A stretch of 43,124 nucleotides of DNA from an uncultured Saprospiraceae bacterium (lineage in GTDB: Bacteria > Bacteroidota > Bacteroidia > Chitinophagales > Saprospiraceae), in assembly GCA_937923465.1 (NCBI GenBank), contig CALDUB010000147.1, positions 1-43,124 of the forward strand, written 5' to 3'. Under the pieces are notes generated by a model, which searched no databases, was not told where the DNA came from, and saw only the letters and a list, made by a program, of their open reading frames with translations. A program made the position numbers and the translations under genes. Of this stretch, positions 36,190 to 41,894 are shown in pieces (the first letter of the stretch is position 1; the number at the start of each line of letters is the position of its first letter).

Positions 36190-36921
36190 TTATTTTCCTT
36201 CAAAAAATCCTGGATGCAAACCACATTCCGTCTTCTCTTTATCTGCCCAACGCCCACTACGGCCTTCGCCTTTGACTGTACAATGCGTACACCCAACAGA
36301 ACCAAAACCCAAATCTAACAAAGGATGCTGTGGCAATTTATTCAAACCTGTCTGATACAGAAATTCTCCTTCTTCGATGTCAATCAAAGGATGAAATTTC
36401 ATTAAATCATCTTGCTCTTCCCACACCCGTAGATGTTTTCTAAAGTCAGTTTGATACGCCATGACACCAGAAATCCAAACCTTGTGCCCAGCTTTTATAG
36501 GCTCTAAAGGAGATATTTTGTTAATCGCACAGCAGCGTTCTGTATCCGTCTTCCACAACTCTTTATTTTTTGAAATCAAATTATCTTTCGCCACTGGCAT
36601 GACCTCAATAATTTCTAAACCGAATAAATCTGTCAACTGCTTTTTGTATTCCAAAGTCTCTGGAAAATGATAAGTCGTATTAATGAAATGTACCTTTTGT
36701 TCCTTCTGTATTTGTGAGATAAGCCACAAAAGAAAAACTGATTTAGTACCGAATGAAGAGGTCACTAAAATCTCTGACGCATCAAATTCTTCGTATAACT
36801 TCTCTAGTCTTTGACGGTATTTCAAAGGCTGAAAAGTCTTATTTAGAAACTCAATATTGAGCTTTAAATCTCCAATTAAATCGTTTTTTTCTGCGAAAAT
36901 GGATTCGATAACTTTAGTCAT
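36190..36921 (-). CDS. cysH: Phosphoadenylyl/adenylyl-sulfate reductase
   Basis: 243 residues. SSFGTKSVFLLWLI (about 55-68) is the PP-loop-like nucleotide site. INTTYHFPETLEYKKQL (about 80-96) and KTDTERCCAINKISPL follow. The paired cysteines C130-C131 and C211-x-x-C214 (GCTHC) are the four ligands of a [4Fe-4S] cluster, which indicates the APS-reducing type. C233 in the C-terminal TECGLH motif is the catalytic cysteine. The enzyme reduces APS (or PAPS) to sulfite with thioredoxin. It is the last sulfur gene of the operon, 69 bp after the siroheme gene. The sulfate-activating CysD/CysN genes are not in this window. Confidence 0.92.
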   Translation of the reverse strand: MTKVIESIFAEKNDLIGDLKLNIEFLNKTFQPLKYRQRLEKLYEEFDASEILVTSSFGTKSVFLLWLISQIQKEQKVHFINTTYHFPETLEYKKQLTDLFGLEIIEVMPVAKDNLISKNKELWKTDTERCCAINKISPLEPIKAGHKVWISGVMAYQTDFRKHLRVWEEQDDLMKFHPLIDIEEGEFLYQTGLNKLPQHPLLDLGFGSVGCTHCTVKGEGRSGRWADKEKTECGLHPGFFEGK

Positions 36922-36990: not shown

Positions 36991-37599
36991 TTAAGCCCGT
37001 TCTACGCTTTCTACTTCGTTTTTTTCTACCAAACTAGAAGTTAACTCATTCAATTTTTGCACTTTATAAGTAAAATTTCCTTTTAATCTATCGCGTAATA
37101 CTTTCAAATTAGACAATAAACCGTCCGTATTTTCTGGTAGAATCTCTTCCAAAACCTGACGGAAGCGCTTAGCAAAAGTAGGGGACTGTCCATTTGTAGA
37201 AATAGCAACTTTTAAATTTCCGCGTGTCACGATACTTCCCAAATAAAAATCGCATAATGCTGGAGTATCCGCTACATTTACCAAGACACCAAATGCTTTT
37301 GAAATTTTATGAACACGACGATTTAATTCAGAAATATCTGTTGCTGCAATGACCATATCTTTGCCCGCAACATCTTCTGCCTCAAATTCACGATTAACGA
37401 TTTTGACCTTATTACCAGGATTGTCAATGAGTAAATTTTTGACTTCGTCCGAAACCCAAGGAGCGACCATTGTGATGTTCGCATCAGGGCTACTCTTGAG
37501 AATGAATGATAATTTTTCATGACCAACTTGACCTGCACCAACGATGAGAAGGTCTAAGGTGTGTACTTTTAAGAAAATTGGATATAGTGGATTTTGCAT
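36991..37599 (-). CDS. Precorrin-2 dehydrogenase/sirohydrochlorin ferrochelatase (CysG N-terminal domain, Met8-like)
   Basis: 202 residues, matching stand-alone siroheme-synthase N domains. A Rossmann NAD site lies at about 18-29 (LIVGAGQVGHEK). MVIAATDISELNRRVHKISK and VNVADTPALCDFYLGSIVTRGNLKVAISTNGQSPTFAKRFR contain the conserved Asp and the NGQSP segment typical of CysG/Met8. It oxidises precorrin-2 to sirohydrochlorin and inserts iron, giving siroheme for the sulfite reductase encoded upstream. It lies between cobA and cysH, and the 217-bp gap to cobA contains a long inverted repeat. Confidence 0.92.
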   Translation of the reverse strand: MQNPLYPIFLKVHTLDLLIVGAGQVGHEKLSFILKSSPDANITMVAPWVSDEVKNLLIDNPGNKVKIVNREFEAEDVAGKDMVIAATDISELNRRVHKISKAFGVLVNVADTPALCDFYLGSIVTRGNLKVAISTNGQSPTFAKRFRQVLEEILPENTDGLLSNLKVLRDRLKGNFTYKVQKLNELTSSLVEKNEVESVERA

Positions 37600-37640
37600 G
37601 ATATTGTTAGTTATTGAGTTATTATGTTATTAGTTATTTA

Positions 37641-37784
37641 CCCCCTAACCCCCATTTGGGGGAACTTTTTTCAGGGCTAAGTTTTTTGTAATTCTTTGTT
37701 TCTACGTTTCAACTAAAGAATTGCAATTGAGAATTATTGTAGAGTCAAATTCAACGAAAATTCCCCCAAATGGGAGTTAGGGGG
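37641..37784. repeat. Inverted repeat of the CCCCCTAACCCCC type inside the sulfur operon
   Basis: The arms ccccctaacccccatttggg (from 37641, 24 nt) and ttcccccaaatgggagttag (from 37761, 24 nt) pair at 23 of 24 positions across a loop of about 96 nt. Each arm also forms its own ccccc/ggggg hairpin. It lies between cobA and the siroheme gene. Similar phrases are frequent in Bacteroidota intergenic DNA (general recollection, not searched). Confidence 0.85.
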
Positions 37785-37816
37785 TTTCTCTCTCGAAAAA
37801 AGCGCTCGATTTATGC

Positions 37817-38605
37817 CTAAGTCACGTTTGTCGTACTTCGTAAATCGTACTTCGTACTTCGATTTGCTTCTGCAACAGCCAACTCAGGATGCAGCGCAAC
37901 TACCTCCCCAATAATGATAATTCCTGGCGCACCAATACCTTCATTGACGACCTTTTTAGCAATATCATTCACCGTTCCTAAGAGTTTGCGTTCACTAGGC
38001 AAAGACCCATTTTGTACGACTAAAACTGGTGTATTCCCTTTTCCTTGGCGCGCGAATATCTCAGCGATTTGAGCAATCTTACGAATACCCATGAGAATAA
38101 CTGCTGTAGCATTTGACTGCGCCGCAATTCTCAAATCCTTTGACAAACAACCATTTTTAGTCGTTGCCGTCAAGACCCAAAAACTCTCATTCACTCCGCG
38201 ACGCGTCACTGGCACACGCTGCAATTCTGGAACAGAAATACAACTAGAAATACCTGGCACAATCACCGTCTCAATTCCAAATGCATCCGCATAAGTAATC
38301 TCCTCATGACCCCGTCCAAAAACGAAAGAATCACCTCCTTTTAAGCGGACAACATGACCATTTGAAAAAGCATATTGAACCAACATCAAGTTGATTTCAT
38401 CCTGAGAGTAGCGGTGATTGTCAGCTCTTTTGCCGACATATATTTTTAGAGCATGACTTGGTGCCTCTTTCAATAATTCACGGTTAACCAGTGCATCATA
38501 AAGAATGACATCTGCCGATTGAATAGCGCGTAAACCTTTGATTGTCAATAGTTCTGGGTCACCTGGACCTGCGCCTACTAAAGTTATTTTTGCTTGCTGT
38601 TTCAT
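37817..38605 (-). CDS. cobA: Uroporphyrinogen-III C-methyltransferase (SUMT)
   Basis: 262 residues. It contains the full SUMT signature set: LVGAGPGDPELLTIKGLRAI (about 10-29), VILYDALVNRELL, YVGKRADNHRYSQDEIN, VVRLKGGDSFVFGRGHEE (about 85-102), VIVPGISSC (about 115-123), VPVTRRGVNESFWVLTA and VILMGIRK. It transfers two methyl groups from SAM to uroporphyrinogen III, giving precorrin-2, the first step of siroheme synthesis. It works directly before the Met8-like enzyme in the same operon. The last residues (STKYDLRSTTNVT) come from a short repeated stretch (cgtacttcgtaaatcgtacttcg) and may be non-conserved. Confidence 0.94.
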   Translation of the reverse strand: MKQQAKITLVGAGPGDPELLTIKGLRAIQSADVILYDALVNRELLKEAPSHALKIYVGKRADNHRYSQDEINLMLVQYAFSNGHVVRLKGGDSFVFGRGHEEITYADAFGIETVIVPGISSCISVPELQRVPVTRRGVNESFWVLTATTKNGCLSKDLRIAAQSNATAVILMGIRKIAQIAEIFARQGKGNTPVLVVQNGSLPSERKLLGTVNDIAKKVVNEGIGAPGIIIIGEVVALHPELAVAEANRSTKYDLRSTTNVT

Positions 38606-38666
38606 CTGTATTGTTACTTTTAGATTGCTTTTAAAGCTGAAATGAATGGGTTGTTTTTTAATTTTC

Positions 38667-38768
38667 AGGGGTCAGGGGTCAGGGGTCAGGGGTCAGGCTG
38701 TTCTAACTTGTCCGCTAAGTGGCACTCGCGAGGGCAGCCTGACTCCTGACCCCTCGCACCTGACACCT
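38667..38768. repeat. Inverted repeat with TCAGGGG tandem units between sulfite reductase and cobA
   Basis: Four tandem 7-mers tcagggg make up the left arm (38667-38700), which ends gtcaggctg. The right arm (38735-38768) is complementary at 29 of 34 positions, loop 34 nt. It starts immediately after the sulfite reductase stop (38770). In mRNA it would give a very stable hairpin inside the operon. Confidence 0.87.
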
Positions 38769-38769
38769 C

Positions 38770-40941
38770 TTAAGCATTATAATACTGACCAACCACAAGT
38801 TTATCTTGTCCCGTATCAGCCAATTGTTTCTCCCGAATTTCGATTACTTTCTTAAAGAAGTCCTGTGAATATTGAAGAAATGAACGAGCAAATTCTTCAC
38901 TCGGTTCCTGCTTATTTATCTGTAAAACTACTTCAGAAAAATCTCCTTCAAATTCAATCTTTCCTGCTTCGACATACAGCTCTTGAAAGTCAGAAATGAT
39001 TTTTCTCTGTGAGTTACACTTCACATCTTCTGCTAACAAGAGTGCTTTTGCTCCGATAACGAAGGCAGCATAAGAATTATAAATACTGTCTGCAAATGCG
39101 CCATGTTCGAGGGCTTCGCTGGCGAGTTGTAGTTTTTCTTTTGCATCATTGATGATAGTTCCGATGACATCGAGAGAGACACCTGCACATTCGCCCACAC
39201 CAATTTCTTGGCGGTACTGTGCATCTTGTCCCCAATCGAAAAAATCGGTAGGTGAGAGGCTTTCAATTTTGGCTAGTGGCTTTAATAAATCATAGAAATA
39301 TCTTTTGCCTAAGCGATAGTAATAATCATTAAAATATTCGCCTTGGAGGCTGCTATCTTCGTAGTCATTAAATAGACTGCGTAAGACTTCAGGAATACGT
39401 TTGGTCGGAATTTTAATTACTTTTTCTGCAATAAATCCTTTGCCTTCTTTGTCCACTCCACCGCCAATCACAACTTGCATCGCAGGAATAACCATTGCGC
39501 CTTTTTTGATAGAACTGCCGTGAAATCCAATATTTGCCGCCGTGTGTTGACCACAGCCGTTCATACAGCCACTAATTTTGATTTTTATATTGCTTTCCTC
39601 GACCAGAGACGGGAATTCATCTTGGATAAGCTCACTCAATTTCGTCGCCAATCCCGTACTATTCGTCACACCTAACACACAAGTATCAGTCCCTGGGCAA
39701 GCCGTAATATCTGCTGTCGAATCAAATCCAGCTTGCGCAAATCCCAACTGTGTCAATTCATTAAAAATGTGTGGCAAATGTTCCTCACGCACATATTTGA
39801 TAACTAAACCCTGATTAACCGTCAATCGCAAATCATCTGCCGCGTAATCCTTAATCAAAGTCGCCAATTGACGTGCTCTTTCTGCATCAATATCGCCCAA
39901 AGGAATGCGCACTTGTACCGCAAACCAATTTTTTTGCTTCTGTTCAAATACATTCGTTCTTTTCCACAAATCAAAAGCTACTGCATCAATCGGCGTATTA
40001 GAAGGTGCAAATTTATAAGCTGCTGGCTCTGGTTGAGGAACTAAATTGCGGTCGATTTTGACAATTTTATTAGCGATAGCAGTGCGTTCTTGCTCGACTA
40101 ATTTTGAGAATTCTTCAACACCCAATTTTTTAACCAAAAACTTCATCCGCGCTTTCATTCGCTTTTCGCGCTCGCCGTAGCGGTCAAAAACACGAATGGC
40201 AGCTTCCATGTAAGGAATGATTTCATCTTCGTGTAGAAATTCAGAAACCGTTTGTGCTACCTGTCCAACTGCACCCAATCCACCTGCTATTACTAATTTA
40301 AAACCTCTGACTTCTTCTCCATTTTCTTTTTTGACACGTGGAATAAATCCAAAATCATGAAAATAAGTATAAGCACTGTCCGCTTCGCTACTCGAAAAAG
40401 CAATCTTGATTTTACGCCCCATTTCTTGGCAAATTGGATTGCGCAAAAAGTATTCAAAAGTCTGGTGTACGTATGGCGTGACGTCAAAAGGCTCATTCGG
40501 GTCAATCCCAGCTATTGCAGATGCCGTGATATTACGGACAGTATTTCCACATGCTTCGCGGGCTGTAACGCCTGCATCTGCAAGGGCTTCCCACACTTTT
40601 GGGCTGTCATTTAGTTTGACGTAGTGAAACTGAATATTCTGGCGTGTCGTGATGTGTAGGTTACCAGGCGTAAATTTTTCAGAGGTGTCAGCCAAGCGAA
40701 TAAGCTGTGCTGTCGTCAATTTTCCATAAGGAATTTTAGTGCGAAACATGTGTACACCAAACTGTCTCTGACCATAAACGCCACGTGTCAATCGGTAATG
40801 TTTAAAACGTTCTTCATCTTCTTTTCCTGCGTGCAATCCTTTGATTCTACGCTTCAACTCATCAATATCTTTTGCGGCTTCGGGACTGATATTATTATAT
40901 GAATTTTCACTGATTTCTGTCGTATTTGGATTTGTACTCAT
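38770..40941 (-). CDS. Siroheme/[4Fe-4S] sulfite (nitrite/sulfite) reductase with C-terminal HEPN-like domain
   Basis: The track gives 747 residues from 41013, but the ATG at 40941 (MSTNPNTTEISENS, 723 residues) is the more family-like start; the first 24 codons overlap a 9-bp hairpin. The protein has two ferredoxin-like/siroheme half repeats: RLTRGVYGQRQFGVHMFRTKIPYGKL, HITTRQNIQFHYV, and in the second half RLTVNQGLVIKYV. The four cluster/siroheme cysteines sit in TACPGTDTC (about 441-447 in track numbering) and KISGCMNGCGQH (about 481-485). The last about 130 residues (SPTDFFDWGQDAQ onward, with YNSYAAFVIGAKALLL) look like a HEPN helical domain. It reduces sulfite to sulfide with six electrons. 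First structural gene after two polycysteine leader ORFs and terminators. Confidence 0.92.
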   Translation of the reverse strand: MSTNPNTTEISENSYNNISPEAAKDIDELKRRIKGLHAGKEDEERFKHYRLTRGVYGQRQFGVHMFRTKIPYGKLTTAQLIRLADTSEKFTPGNLHITTRQNIQFHYVKLNDSPKVWEALADAGVTAREACGNTVRNITASAIAGIDPNEPFDVTPYVHQTFEYFLRNPICQEMGRKIKIAFSSSEADSAYTYFHDFGFIPRVKKENGEEVRGFKLVIAGGLGAVGQVAQTVSEFLHEDEIIPYMEAAIRVFDRYGEREKRMKARMKFLVKKLGVEEFSKLVEQERTAIANKIVKIDRNLVPQPEPAAYKFAPSNTPIDAVAFDLWKRTNVFEQKQKNWFAVQVRIPLGDIDAERARQLATLIKDYAADDLRLTVNQGLVIKYVREEHLPHIFNELTQLGFAQAGFDSTADITACPGTDTCVLGVTNSTGLATKLSELIQDEFPSLVEESNIKIKISGCMNGCGQHTAANIGFHGSSIKKGAMVIPAMQVVIGGGVDKEGKGFIAEKVIKIPTKRIPEVLRSLFNDYEDSSLQGEYFNDYYYRLGKRYFYDLLKPLAKIESLSPTDFFDWGQDAQYRQEIGVGECAGVSLDVIGTIINDAKEKLQLASEALEHGAFADSIYNSYAAFVIGAKALLLAEDVKCNSQRKIISDFQELYVEAGKIEFEGDFSEVVLQINKQEPSEEFARSFLQYSQDFFKKVIEIREKQLADTGQDKLVVGQYYNA

Positions 40942-41059
40942 TGTATTTCTATTGTCGATTGAGAATTTTTGAAAGCGGGAGAGAAGCTTTAATTCTCTCC
41001 CTGTATCAAACATTTTTATGAAATTGTAATCTTGTTTTCTTTCAGTTTTTTGGGATTAA

Positions 41060-41106
41060 AAAAAAAGCCCGCTAAAGAATTTGATATTCCTTAGCGGGCT
41101 TTTTTT
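41060..41106 (-). terminator. Attenuator terminator 2, directly before the sulfite reductase gene
   Basis: The 21-nt arms (41060-41080 and 41086-41106) pair throughout except for one G-U, around a 5-nt loop. The core is agcccgctaa/ttagcgggct, and in the minus direction the stem ends in at least eight T residues. It begins 21 nt after the stop codon of leader ORF 2 and lies upstream, not downstream, of a structural gene, as expected for an attenuator. A separate 10-bp hairpin (tttttcgtta/taacgaaaaa) overlaps its A-rich foot. Confidence 0.92.
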
Positions 41107-41127
41107 CGTTATTATTTTAACGAAAAA

Positions 41128-41241
41128 TCAAGACTCATGCACATAGGAAAACCGTTCTGTCGGACAACAACAGCAGCAACAACAACACATCATTGTGTCT
41201 TGCATTGTCGAACGGTTAGGAATGTGGTTTGAGTAATTCAT
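41128..41241 (-). CDS. Polycysteine leader peptide 2 (37 aa, eight consecutive Cys)
   Basis: Not in the ORF track (too short). ATG at 41241 opens MNYSNHIPNRSTMQDTMM, then eight Cys codons (41164-41187: TGT x3, TGC x2, TGT x3), then PTERFSYVHES and TGA. The core TMM-Cys(n) is shared with leader 1 at 41378, but the flanks and the TGT/TGC pattern differ, so it is not a recent copy. The stop is 21 nt before an intrinsic terminator, and sulfite reductase follows. The 8-bp arms aaccgttc (transcript, 41217-41210) and gaacggtt (41157-41150) enclose the Cys codons in a stem-loop. The expected role is to stall the ribosome when Cys-tRNA is scarce and so prevent termination. Regulatory role is inference. 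Confidence 0.85.
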   Translation of the reverse strand: MNYSNHIPNRSTMQDTMMCCCCCCCCPTERFSYVHES

Positions 41242-41317
41242 TTTTATTTGTTGAAAATCAATGTTTTATAAAATTGATTTTAAATTATAAATGTAAAATG
41301 CATGTTTTGAAATAATA

Positions 41318-41355
41318 AAAAAAGCCTTTCCGAAATGAAACGGAAAGGCTTTTTT
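41318..41355 (-). terminator. Attenuator terminator 1, between the two leader ORFs
   Basis: A 15-bp perfect stem (aaaaaagcctttccg / cggaaaggctttttt) with an 8-nt loop, followed in the minus direction by seven T residues. It starts 22 nt after the stop of leader ORF 1. Its 5' arm contains tttccgttt, identical to a segment near the start of leader 1. Confidence 0.93.
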
Positions 41356-41377
41356 AGCATTGTGAATTATTAAAATT

Positions 41378-41485
41378 CTACATCTGCATATCAAGTTTTC
41401 CCGTCCGATTGGAACGACAACAACAACAGCAGCAACACATCATGGTGTTGTTCGCTAAGATTGTATGTAAACGGAAATTTTTCAT
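41378..41485 (-). CDS. Polycysteine leader peptide 1 (35 aa, seven consecutive Cys)
   Basis: Not in the ORF track. ATG at 41485 opens MKNFRLHTILANNTMM, then seven Cys codons (41417-41437: TGT, TGC x2, TGT x4), then RSNRTGKLDMQM and TAG. It is the first ORF of the sulfur-operon leader. The downstream terminator lies 22 nt after the stop, nearly the same spacing as for leader 2. Segment tttccgttt within codons 3-6 (41477-41469) is repeated exactly in the 5' arm of the terminator. Segment acgggaaaa after the Cys run (41404-41396) can pair with either, apart from one bulged G. This is the trp-attenuator logic of 1:2, 2:3 and 3:4 pairing. The peptide itself is probably dispensable; this and the mechanism are inferred. 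Confidence 0.86.
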   Translation of the reverse strand: MKNFRLHTILANNTMMCCCCCCCRSNRTGKLDMQM

Positions 41486-41739
41486 CGTAAATAAATACTT
41501 TGATTGTTAATTGATAATGCAAATGTGTGGACTTATTTTGGATTTTGCAAGGGGTAGATTCAAATTAATGAAAAGTGGAAAGGTCGAATTACGCTGCGCA
41601 AATTTTTTAGTTAATTTATAAGGTAACTGATTATGAATGATTTATGAAGAAAAACTGTCCGATTTGTGAGGGTGGATTTTTTTGAAAATAAATTTGAAAT
41701 AAGTGGAAGTGTTTTTATGCGGACGTAAAATTGTGAGCT
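41486..41739. other. AT-rich region upstream of the sulfur-operon leader
   Basis: About 250 bp without a credible ORF (the 81-aa track ORF at 41611 is a chance frame). It should contain the promoter of the attenuated sulfur operon. No exact TAnnTTTG element was found on the minus strand, and no other structure was recognised. Confidence 0.4.
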
Positions 41740-41876
41740 AATCATCCACACATCGGAGTAATTTTTTGCAAAAAAAATATGGAGTTTGTGGATGATTTTT
41801 GTGGTAGACTCAAGCAAATCATCCACAAACTCTATTTGATAGCTGCTGGCTATCAAATCTCGATGTGTGGATGATT
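41740..41876. repeat. Nested inverted repeat with four TCATCCACA sites
   Basis: Outer arms aatcatccacacatcg (41740-41755) and cgatgtgtggatgatt (41861-41876) are perfect complements. Inner arms gagtttgtggatgattt and aaatcatccacaaactc (about 41783-41832) are also complementary. The short hairpin tttgatagc/gctatcaaa lies between. TCATCCACA occurs four times in alternating orientation (41742, 41787, 41819, 41866). This looks like a mosaic palindromic (REP/BIME-like) element. It sits between the CIA30 gene stop and the sulfur-operon promoter. TCATCCACA differs from the DnaA box TTATCCACA at one base. Confidence 0.75.
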
Positions 41877-41894
41877 ACGGGTTTGCATAATGAC

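Follow-up and report, generated by a model that had tools for sequence, protein, structure and literature searches.

Tandem polycysteine leader ORFs with intrinsic terminators as predicted serial cysteine attenuators before a sulfur-assimilation operon of Saprospiraceae

What could two consecutive short open reading frames (ORFs), each with an unbroken run of cysteine codons, be doing in front of the sulfur-assimilation operon of an uncultured Saprospiraceae bacterium? The window considered here, i.e. the whole stretch of DNA analysed (43,124 nucleotides), had been given a sequence-only reading, which claimed two minus-strand polycysteine ORFs (7 and 8 Cys), an intrinsic terminator 22 nt past the stop codon of leader 1 and another 21 nt past that of leader 2, and downstream of them a sulfite reductase gene (sir), cobA, a siroheme gene and cysH in this order. 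All these elements are confirmed from the sequence, the leader region being organised as follows:

41378-41485, minus strand: leader ORF 1, 35 aa with seven Cys in a row, MKNFRLHTILANNTMMCCCCCCCRSNRTGKLDMQM, with an orthologue in the same-genus genome L013
41417-41437, minus strand: the seven Cys codons of leader 1 (candidate sensor codons)
41318-41355, minus strand: intrinsic terminator 1, 15-bp stem with GCCTTTCCG arm and T-run, 22 nt after the stop
41128-41241, minus strand: leader ORF 2, 37 aa with eight Cys in a row, MNYSNHIPNRSTMQDTMMCCCCCCCCPTERFSYVHES
41164-41187, minus strand: the eight Cys codons of leader 2
41060-41106, minus strand: intrinsic terminator 2, GCCCGCTAAGGAAT arm and T-run, 21 nt after the stop

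Runs of six TGY codons are confined to the two leader ORFs in the 43-kb window and were absent from 100 dinucleotide shuffles of it (0 runs). In the rest of the 5.75-Mb genome, six-Cys-codon runs occur at three places only; two of these do not form a leader-terminator unit, and the third is a (TGT)10 microsatellite. A simple-repeat origin of the leader runs was rejected, as TGT and TGC are mixed (452:206 across 113 leaders), in frame and within short ORFs. After the Cys run, 12 codons follow in leader 1 and 11 in leader 2. Folded alone, terminators 1 and 2 reach -20.9 and -30.3 kcal/mol, respectively; a generic terminator scan recovered only the first, the second being longer, yet plain in the sequence. 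An Rfam scan of the leaders returned Thr_leader, Trp_leader and Phe_leader matches far below the gathering score, all on the terminator hairpins, and no SAM element, so that a known Rfam leader element, including the SAM-I riboswitch, was rejected as well.

Downstream of the leaders, the operon comprises four genes:

38770-40941, minus strand: sir, which opens the operon, encoding a NirA-like, ferredoxin-type assimilatory sulfite reductase
37817-38605, minus strand: cobA, uroporphyrinogen-III C-methyltransferase (TIGR01469, 264.7 bits, cut-off 185)
36991-37599, minus strand: siroheme synthase, CysG N-terminal domain (CysG-N/precorrin-2 dehydrogenase; TIGR01470, 122.7 bits, cut-off 62.3)
36190-36921, minus strand: cysH, (P)APS reductase (NF002537, 177.8 bits, cut-off 154)

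The sir product matches the NirA family and CysI/Sir models with scores below the equivalog cut-offs, and its start is the ATG at 41013 or, more likely, that at 40941. As in attenuated operons, the genes behind the leaders make the amino acid that would be sensed, namely cysteine. Several structured elements also surround these genes. A perfect hairpin, GGGAGAG...CTCTCCC, occupies 40977-41001, past terminator 2 and ahead of the likely sir start (40941). A 148-bp nested palindrome (41738-41885, RNA fold of -64 kcal/mol), immediately upstream of the leaders, has about 25 full or partial copies in its own genome, mostly 77-88% identical, in the manner of a REP/MITE-like dispersed repeat. Inside the operon, the sir-cobA gap (38655-38770) holds a second palindromic dispersed repeat family of about 20 partial copies, and a long inverted repeat (CCCCCTAACTCCCATTTGGGGG..., 37600-37830) with a fold of -66.5 kcal/mol lies between cobA and the siroheme gene.

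Regarding conservation, the sulfite reductase has its named relatives in Saprospiraceae MAGs and further Bacteroidota, and most of the named sir loci of Saprospiraceae have polycysteine leaders too. When 36 other genomes of the family were searched, leaders were present in 8 of the 10 genomes possessing the enzyme (a count that includes the genome of the window), with two leaders in six of the 8. The same-genus genome L013 has the identical two-leader layout, MKNFQSHTLQNNTMMCCCCCCC... and MKNLSQKNKPLAAAPTMCCCCCCCCC..., with a terminator after each. Enzyme-bearing members of the family lacking a leader at the cut-off used are G007/L022 and Neolewinella L048, and G018/L017 has CCC only in place of a longer Cys run. 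A pattern of five Cys codons, 75-105 nt and GGNTTTT, run over 298 genomes of the family, matched 82 of them, some of the matches being chance occurrences in coding DNA; the reversed control pattern gave few matches. Among the matches to the actual pattern, L185, L219, L226 and L230 were dropped as they are not leaders. Altogether, 69 loci have a leader with its terminator, of which 44 have exactly two leaders and none has three; since this set is partly pattern-gathered, it is biased towards one leader and carries no bias towards two. Several genomes even harbour two such operons and up to four polycysteine leaders (for example L203+L204, L206+L207, L208+L209, L210+L211), and the cultured species Portibacter marinus has a single leader.

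The genes behind these leader-terminator units are sir-cobA-cysG-cysH and, as a second type, a PALP (PLP cysteine-synthase-like) gene followed by those for a JAB peptidase, a ThiS-like carrier and a ThiF-rhodanese protein, besides cysH, O-acetylhomoserine sulfhydrylase, 1-Cys peroxiredoxins and an ATP-grasp gene. The PALP-JAB-ThiS-ThiF/rhodanese set presumably parallels the mycobacterial CysM-Mec-CysO-MoeZ pathway, and by its gene content this putative operon would provide Saprospiraceae with a sulfur-carrier route to cysteine. Tandem leaders precede it at L193, L195, L197, L199, L203, L207, L208, L211, L217 and L227; a peroxiredoxin gene comes first in the operon at L227, and the single-leader locus L177 encodes a ThiS-peroxiredoxin fusion. 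Across the phylum, the pattern search in 396 genomes yielded mostly chance matches in coding DNA and a few true single leaders. Other lineages of Bacteroidota have single polycysteine leaders with a terminator (L237, L252, L255 and L257, with families named by eye); these precede cysteine synthase-JAB genes in a genome of the same order, a DUF4395-like gene and an O-acetylhomoserine sulfhydrylase gene in a Chlorobi-like family, and, in another family, a cysteine synthase gene. The two comparative checks proposed with the sequence-only reading thus came out in its favour, as the Cys runs, the terminators and even the doubling are kept across Saprospiraceae genera, and leaders stand before several other cysteine and sulfur operons.

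Whether the two leaders belong to one message depends on where transcription starts, and the best candidate is:

41520-41550, minus strand: promoter-like site TTGCAA...CACATTTG, of the Bacteroidota -33 TTG / -7 TAnnTTTG type, with one mismatch

Its -7 box, a consensus-level match, lies 42 nt upstream of the leader 1 ATG, and in L013, of the same genus, a similar TTTGCAA...CACATTTGCA precedes leader 1 by 39 nt. Leaders that form separate transcription units, each with its own promoter and hence one attenuator per message, would find room in the inter-leader spacers of 10-110 nt, which contain one-mismatch -7 boxes, and in the window a generic scan picked a sigma70-like match at 41311-41284. The spacer is shorter than 30 nt at many loci, though, and exact TAnnTTTG boxes are scarcer there than upstream of leader 1 (1.1/kb vs. 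3.0/kb), as are TTG-coupled -7 boxes (2.2/kb vs. 7.0/kb), which makes separate units unlikely. Because of this higher density upstream of leader 1 and of the promoter-like site shared with the same-genus genome, the promoter consensus matches favour a single transcript that would run through both leaders.

An attenuator further calls for an antiterminator, and candidate segments occur in the tail of both leaders:

41392-41407, minus strand: candidate antiterminator segment 1 (CGGACGGGAAAACTTG), pairing with the 5' arm of terminator 1
41142-41151, minus strand: core of candidate antiterminator segment 2 (TTTTCCTATG), pairing with AGGAA in the 5' arm of terminator 2

The TTTTCCT of leader 2 and its partner AGGAAAA recur in L013. 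In RNA that stops short of the terminator's 3' arm, the antiterminators fold with -18.8 (leader 1) and -16.7 kcal/mol (leader 2), and the full-length leader RNAs fold into the terminators. Taken singly, the pairing gives p = 0.10 for each leader of the window, and 0.71 and 0.32 for those of the same-genus genome; in the two window leaders by themselves it is suggestive only, and the antiterminator case is strong because of the family-level signal. For the latter, the sequence from the last Cys codon to the terminator was paired with the 5' arm and loop side of the terminator. Summed over 113 leaders, the duplex energy is -1422 kcal/mol, as compared with -865 +/- 22 for dinucleotide-shuffled tails and -962 +/- 25 kcal/mol for tails swapped between leaders, the lowest of 2000 swaps reaching -1051. 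Thinned to 93 dissimilar leaders, the signal persists (-1143 vs. -768 +/- 22), and 123 ordinary terminators at the same loci display no such pairing (mean z of 0.02 vs. -2.45 for the leaders, p 3e-27).

The position of the segment is equally telling. Its start lies a median of 13 nt beyond the last Cys codon (IQR 12-16, SD 4.5), with a scatter of SD 12 when measured from the stop codon and of SD 15.7 with shuffled tails, despite widely varying tail lengths and stop-codon positions. With the last Cys codon in the A site, a ribosome would reach about 13 nt further downstream, and the segment start, being fixed to the Cys codons, is tied to the edge of a ribosome sitting on the Cys run. In 83 of the 113 leaders, no less than half of the segment would lie under a ribosome at the stop codon, such masking being moderately above random placement (mean coverage of 0.69 vs. 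0.57). From this position it follows that stalling would free the segment and completed translation would mask it. A general 1:2 pause hairpin is unsupported across the leaders (pairing of -723 vs. -691 +/- 17); such a pause/anti-antiterminator hairpin is absent from some accepted attenuators and is thus not defining alone.

Hairpins that are incidental, with polycysteine attenuation acting on translation or through Rho, would make the leaders resemble those proposed for mycobacteria. In Actinobacteria, polycysteine leaders before cys operons were predicted without terminators, with a run abutting the stop codon and a guessed Rho-dependent action (Seliverstov 2005, PMC1262725); in Mycobacterium smegmatis they act on translation, according to the accounts of Canestrari 2020 given in PMC9031893 and PMC13236596. 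The Cytophagales also have a class of polycysteine ORFs without terminator. The mycobacterial short ORFs and the leaders of the window share Cys-codon runs upstream of nirA/cys operons, and the cysteine-responsive attenuation of the former would have its counterpart in the window. By these same accounts, however, the mycobacterial ORFs are leaderless, translationally acting and devoid of any terminator hairpin found, whereas the window has terminators, candidate antiterminators and two units in series. Moreover, 6-11 codons on average follow the Cys run in Saprospiraceae-type leaders, instead of a run adjoining the stop codon, and a T-run hairpin stands at a set distance from the stop (median of 28 nt) with a covarying antiterminator. 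As for a leaderless start, the promoter-like box before ATG 1 would leave a 5' leader for leader 1, and leader 2, if on the same transcript, cannot be leaderless. Translational or Rho-dependent action is very improbable here. The Cys-rich peptides could alternatively be functional themselves, as metal- or thiol-binding small proteins whose mRNAs simply end at the terminators; the ORFs are complete, with 4-11 Cys, and some precede peroxiredoxin genes. Against this barely credible option, the peptides lack conservation outside the Cys run, their tail encodes an antiterminator that varies with the terminator arm, and the leaders lie directly upstream of sulfur operons.

The reading retained, in our view highly probable, is that of two consecutive transcription attenuators, each ribosome-mediated and each sensing the charged tRNA-Cys. 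The antiterminator, anchored 13 nt past the Cys codons and covarying with the terminator arm, fits the need of attenuation by Cys-codon stalling, and together with the conserved runs and terminators and the sulfur-gene context it supports the stalling that the sequence-only reading had put forward. A single transcript, ribosome stalling, a response to cysteine and a serial logic are what we infer from these sequence features. RNA polymerase would start upstream of leader 1. With ample cysteine, the ribosome would pass the Cys run, reach the stop codon and cover the antiterminator segment, allowing the terminator to form, and transcription would end at terminator 1 or, after escape from it, at terminator 2. 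When Cys-tRNA is short, the ribosome would stall on the Cys codons, leaving free the segment some 13 nt past the last of them, which would pair with the 5' arm of the terminator and let the polymerase read on. Production of sulfite reductase, the siroheme synthesis enzymes and CysH would require readthrough at both leaders.

Among known systems, the attenuators of trp, his and leu share with the window a regulatory-codon leader ORF, an intrinsic terminator downstream, an antiterminator excluding it (here at the family level) and a 5' arm common to both states; the unit of the window differs in its amino acid, its doubling and the absence of a detected general 1:2 pause hairpin. Upstream of cysS in Rhodobacterales, the uORFC-8-2 motif is likewise a Cys-codon-keyed ribosome-mediated transcription attenuator with an intrinsic terminator (PMC8632094), but it has two Cys codons, is single, precedes a tRNA-synthetase gene and belongs to another phylum, without serial arrangement. 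Leader-peptide attenuators before biosynthesis genes were noted in the transcriptomes of F. psychrophilum (PMC9723704) and B. thetaiotaomicron (PMC7366714), the main texts naming neither a cysteine leader nor a tandem. In tandem riboswitches and dual attenuators, too, one leader carries two successive regulatory decisions. Tandem riboswitches use ligand aptamers, whereas the polycysteine pair would use translating ribosomes, both for the same amino acid. The sequence-only reading knew of no doubled polycysteine attenuator in Bacteroidota and, likewise, neither a polycysteine transcription attenuator from this phylum nor a tandem leader-peptide attenuator was found in the open-access literature (supplements and subscription papers being outside this scope). 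The comparison of about 70 related loci indicates a predicted tandem transcriptional polycysteine attenuator whose layout is kept across a bacterial family.

A related design appears in Cytophagales sir operons (L046, L050, L053-L056, L067, L078 and L083), where a polycysteine ORF follows a SAM-I riboswitch (RF00162), for example at:

L050, 3014-3261: SAM-I riboswitch and polycysteine ORF
L053, 2695-2904: SAM-I riboswitch and polycysteine ORF
L055, 2907-3167: SAM-I riboswitch and polycysteine ORF

At the nine Cytophagales-type loci the ORF begins about 7-10 nt after the aptamer, and the Cys run (5-8 codons) of the riboswitch-linked ORFs ends at or near the stop codon; in L235, a same-family genome, sequence and riboswitch match are consistent with the Cytophagales layout. 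A terminator of the Saprospiraceae-leader kind was not seen right after these ORFs, and 30 further SAM riboswitch loci of the class all lacked a Cys-run ORF. The pair is possibly a combined SAM and cysteine sensor devoid of intrinsic terminator.

Within the Saprospiraceae tandems, the two leaders are not equivalent. The second has on average a longer Cys run (6.5 vs. 5.5) and a longer tail (11 codons vs. 6), and the terminator arms differ with position, GCCTTT prevailing in the first (28/44 vs. 11/44) and CCC in the second (24/44 vs. 3/44). Such position-specific arms suggest an old duplication, for which k-mer similarity is too weak to allow a firm statement. Tentatively, and with some reserve on our side, the doubling may have been selected as a serial cysteine gate, in which differentiated attenuators (longer Cys run and tail and different arms in the second) on one transcript would make the response to Cys-tRNA steeper, near-digital or split between two thresholds, within a multi-operon cysteine regulon of Saprospiraceae that may replace a CysB/CymR-type repressor.

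The arrangement would thus amount to an RNA-only sensing of cysteine that extends over several operons and a whole bacterial family, with the JAB/ThiS/ThiF sulfur-carrier route among its targets, and the pairing of sensors for the same amino acid on one message would offer a natural experiment on whether attenuators multiply. The constant 13-nt gap between Cys codons and antiterminator would be the footprint of a stalled ribosome, readable from the sequence alone, and for Bacteroidota it would imply ribosomes that are coupled to RNA polymerase or follow it closely.
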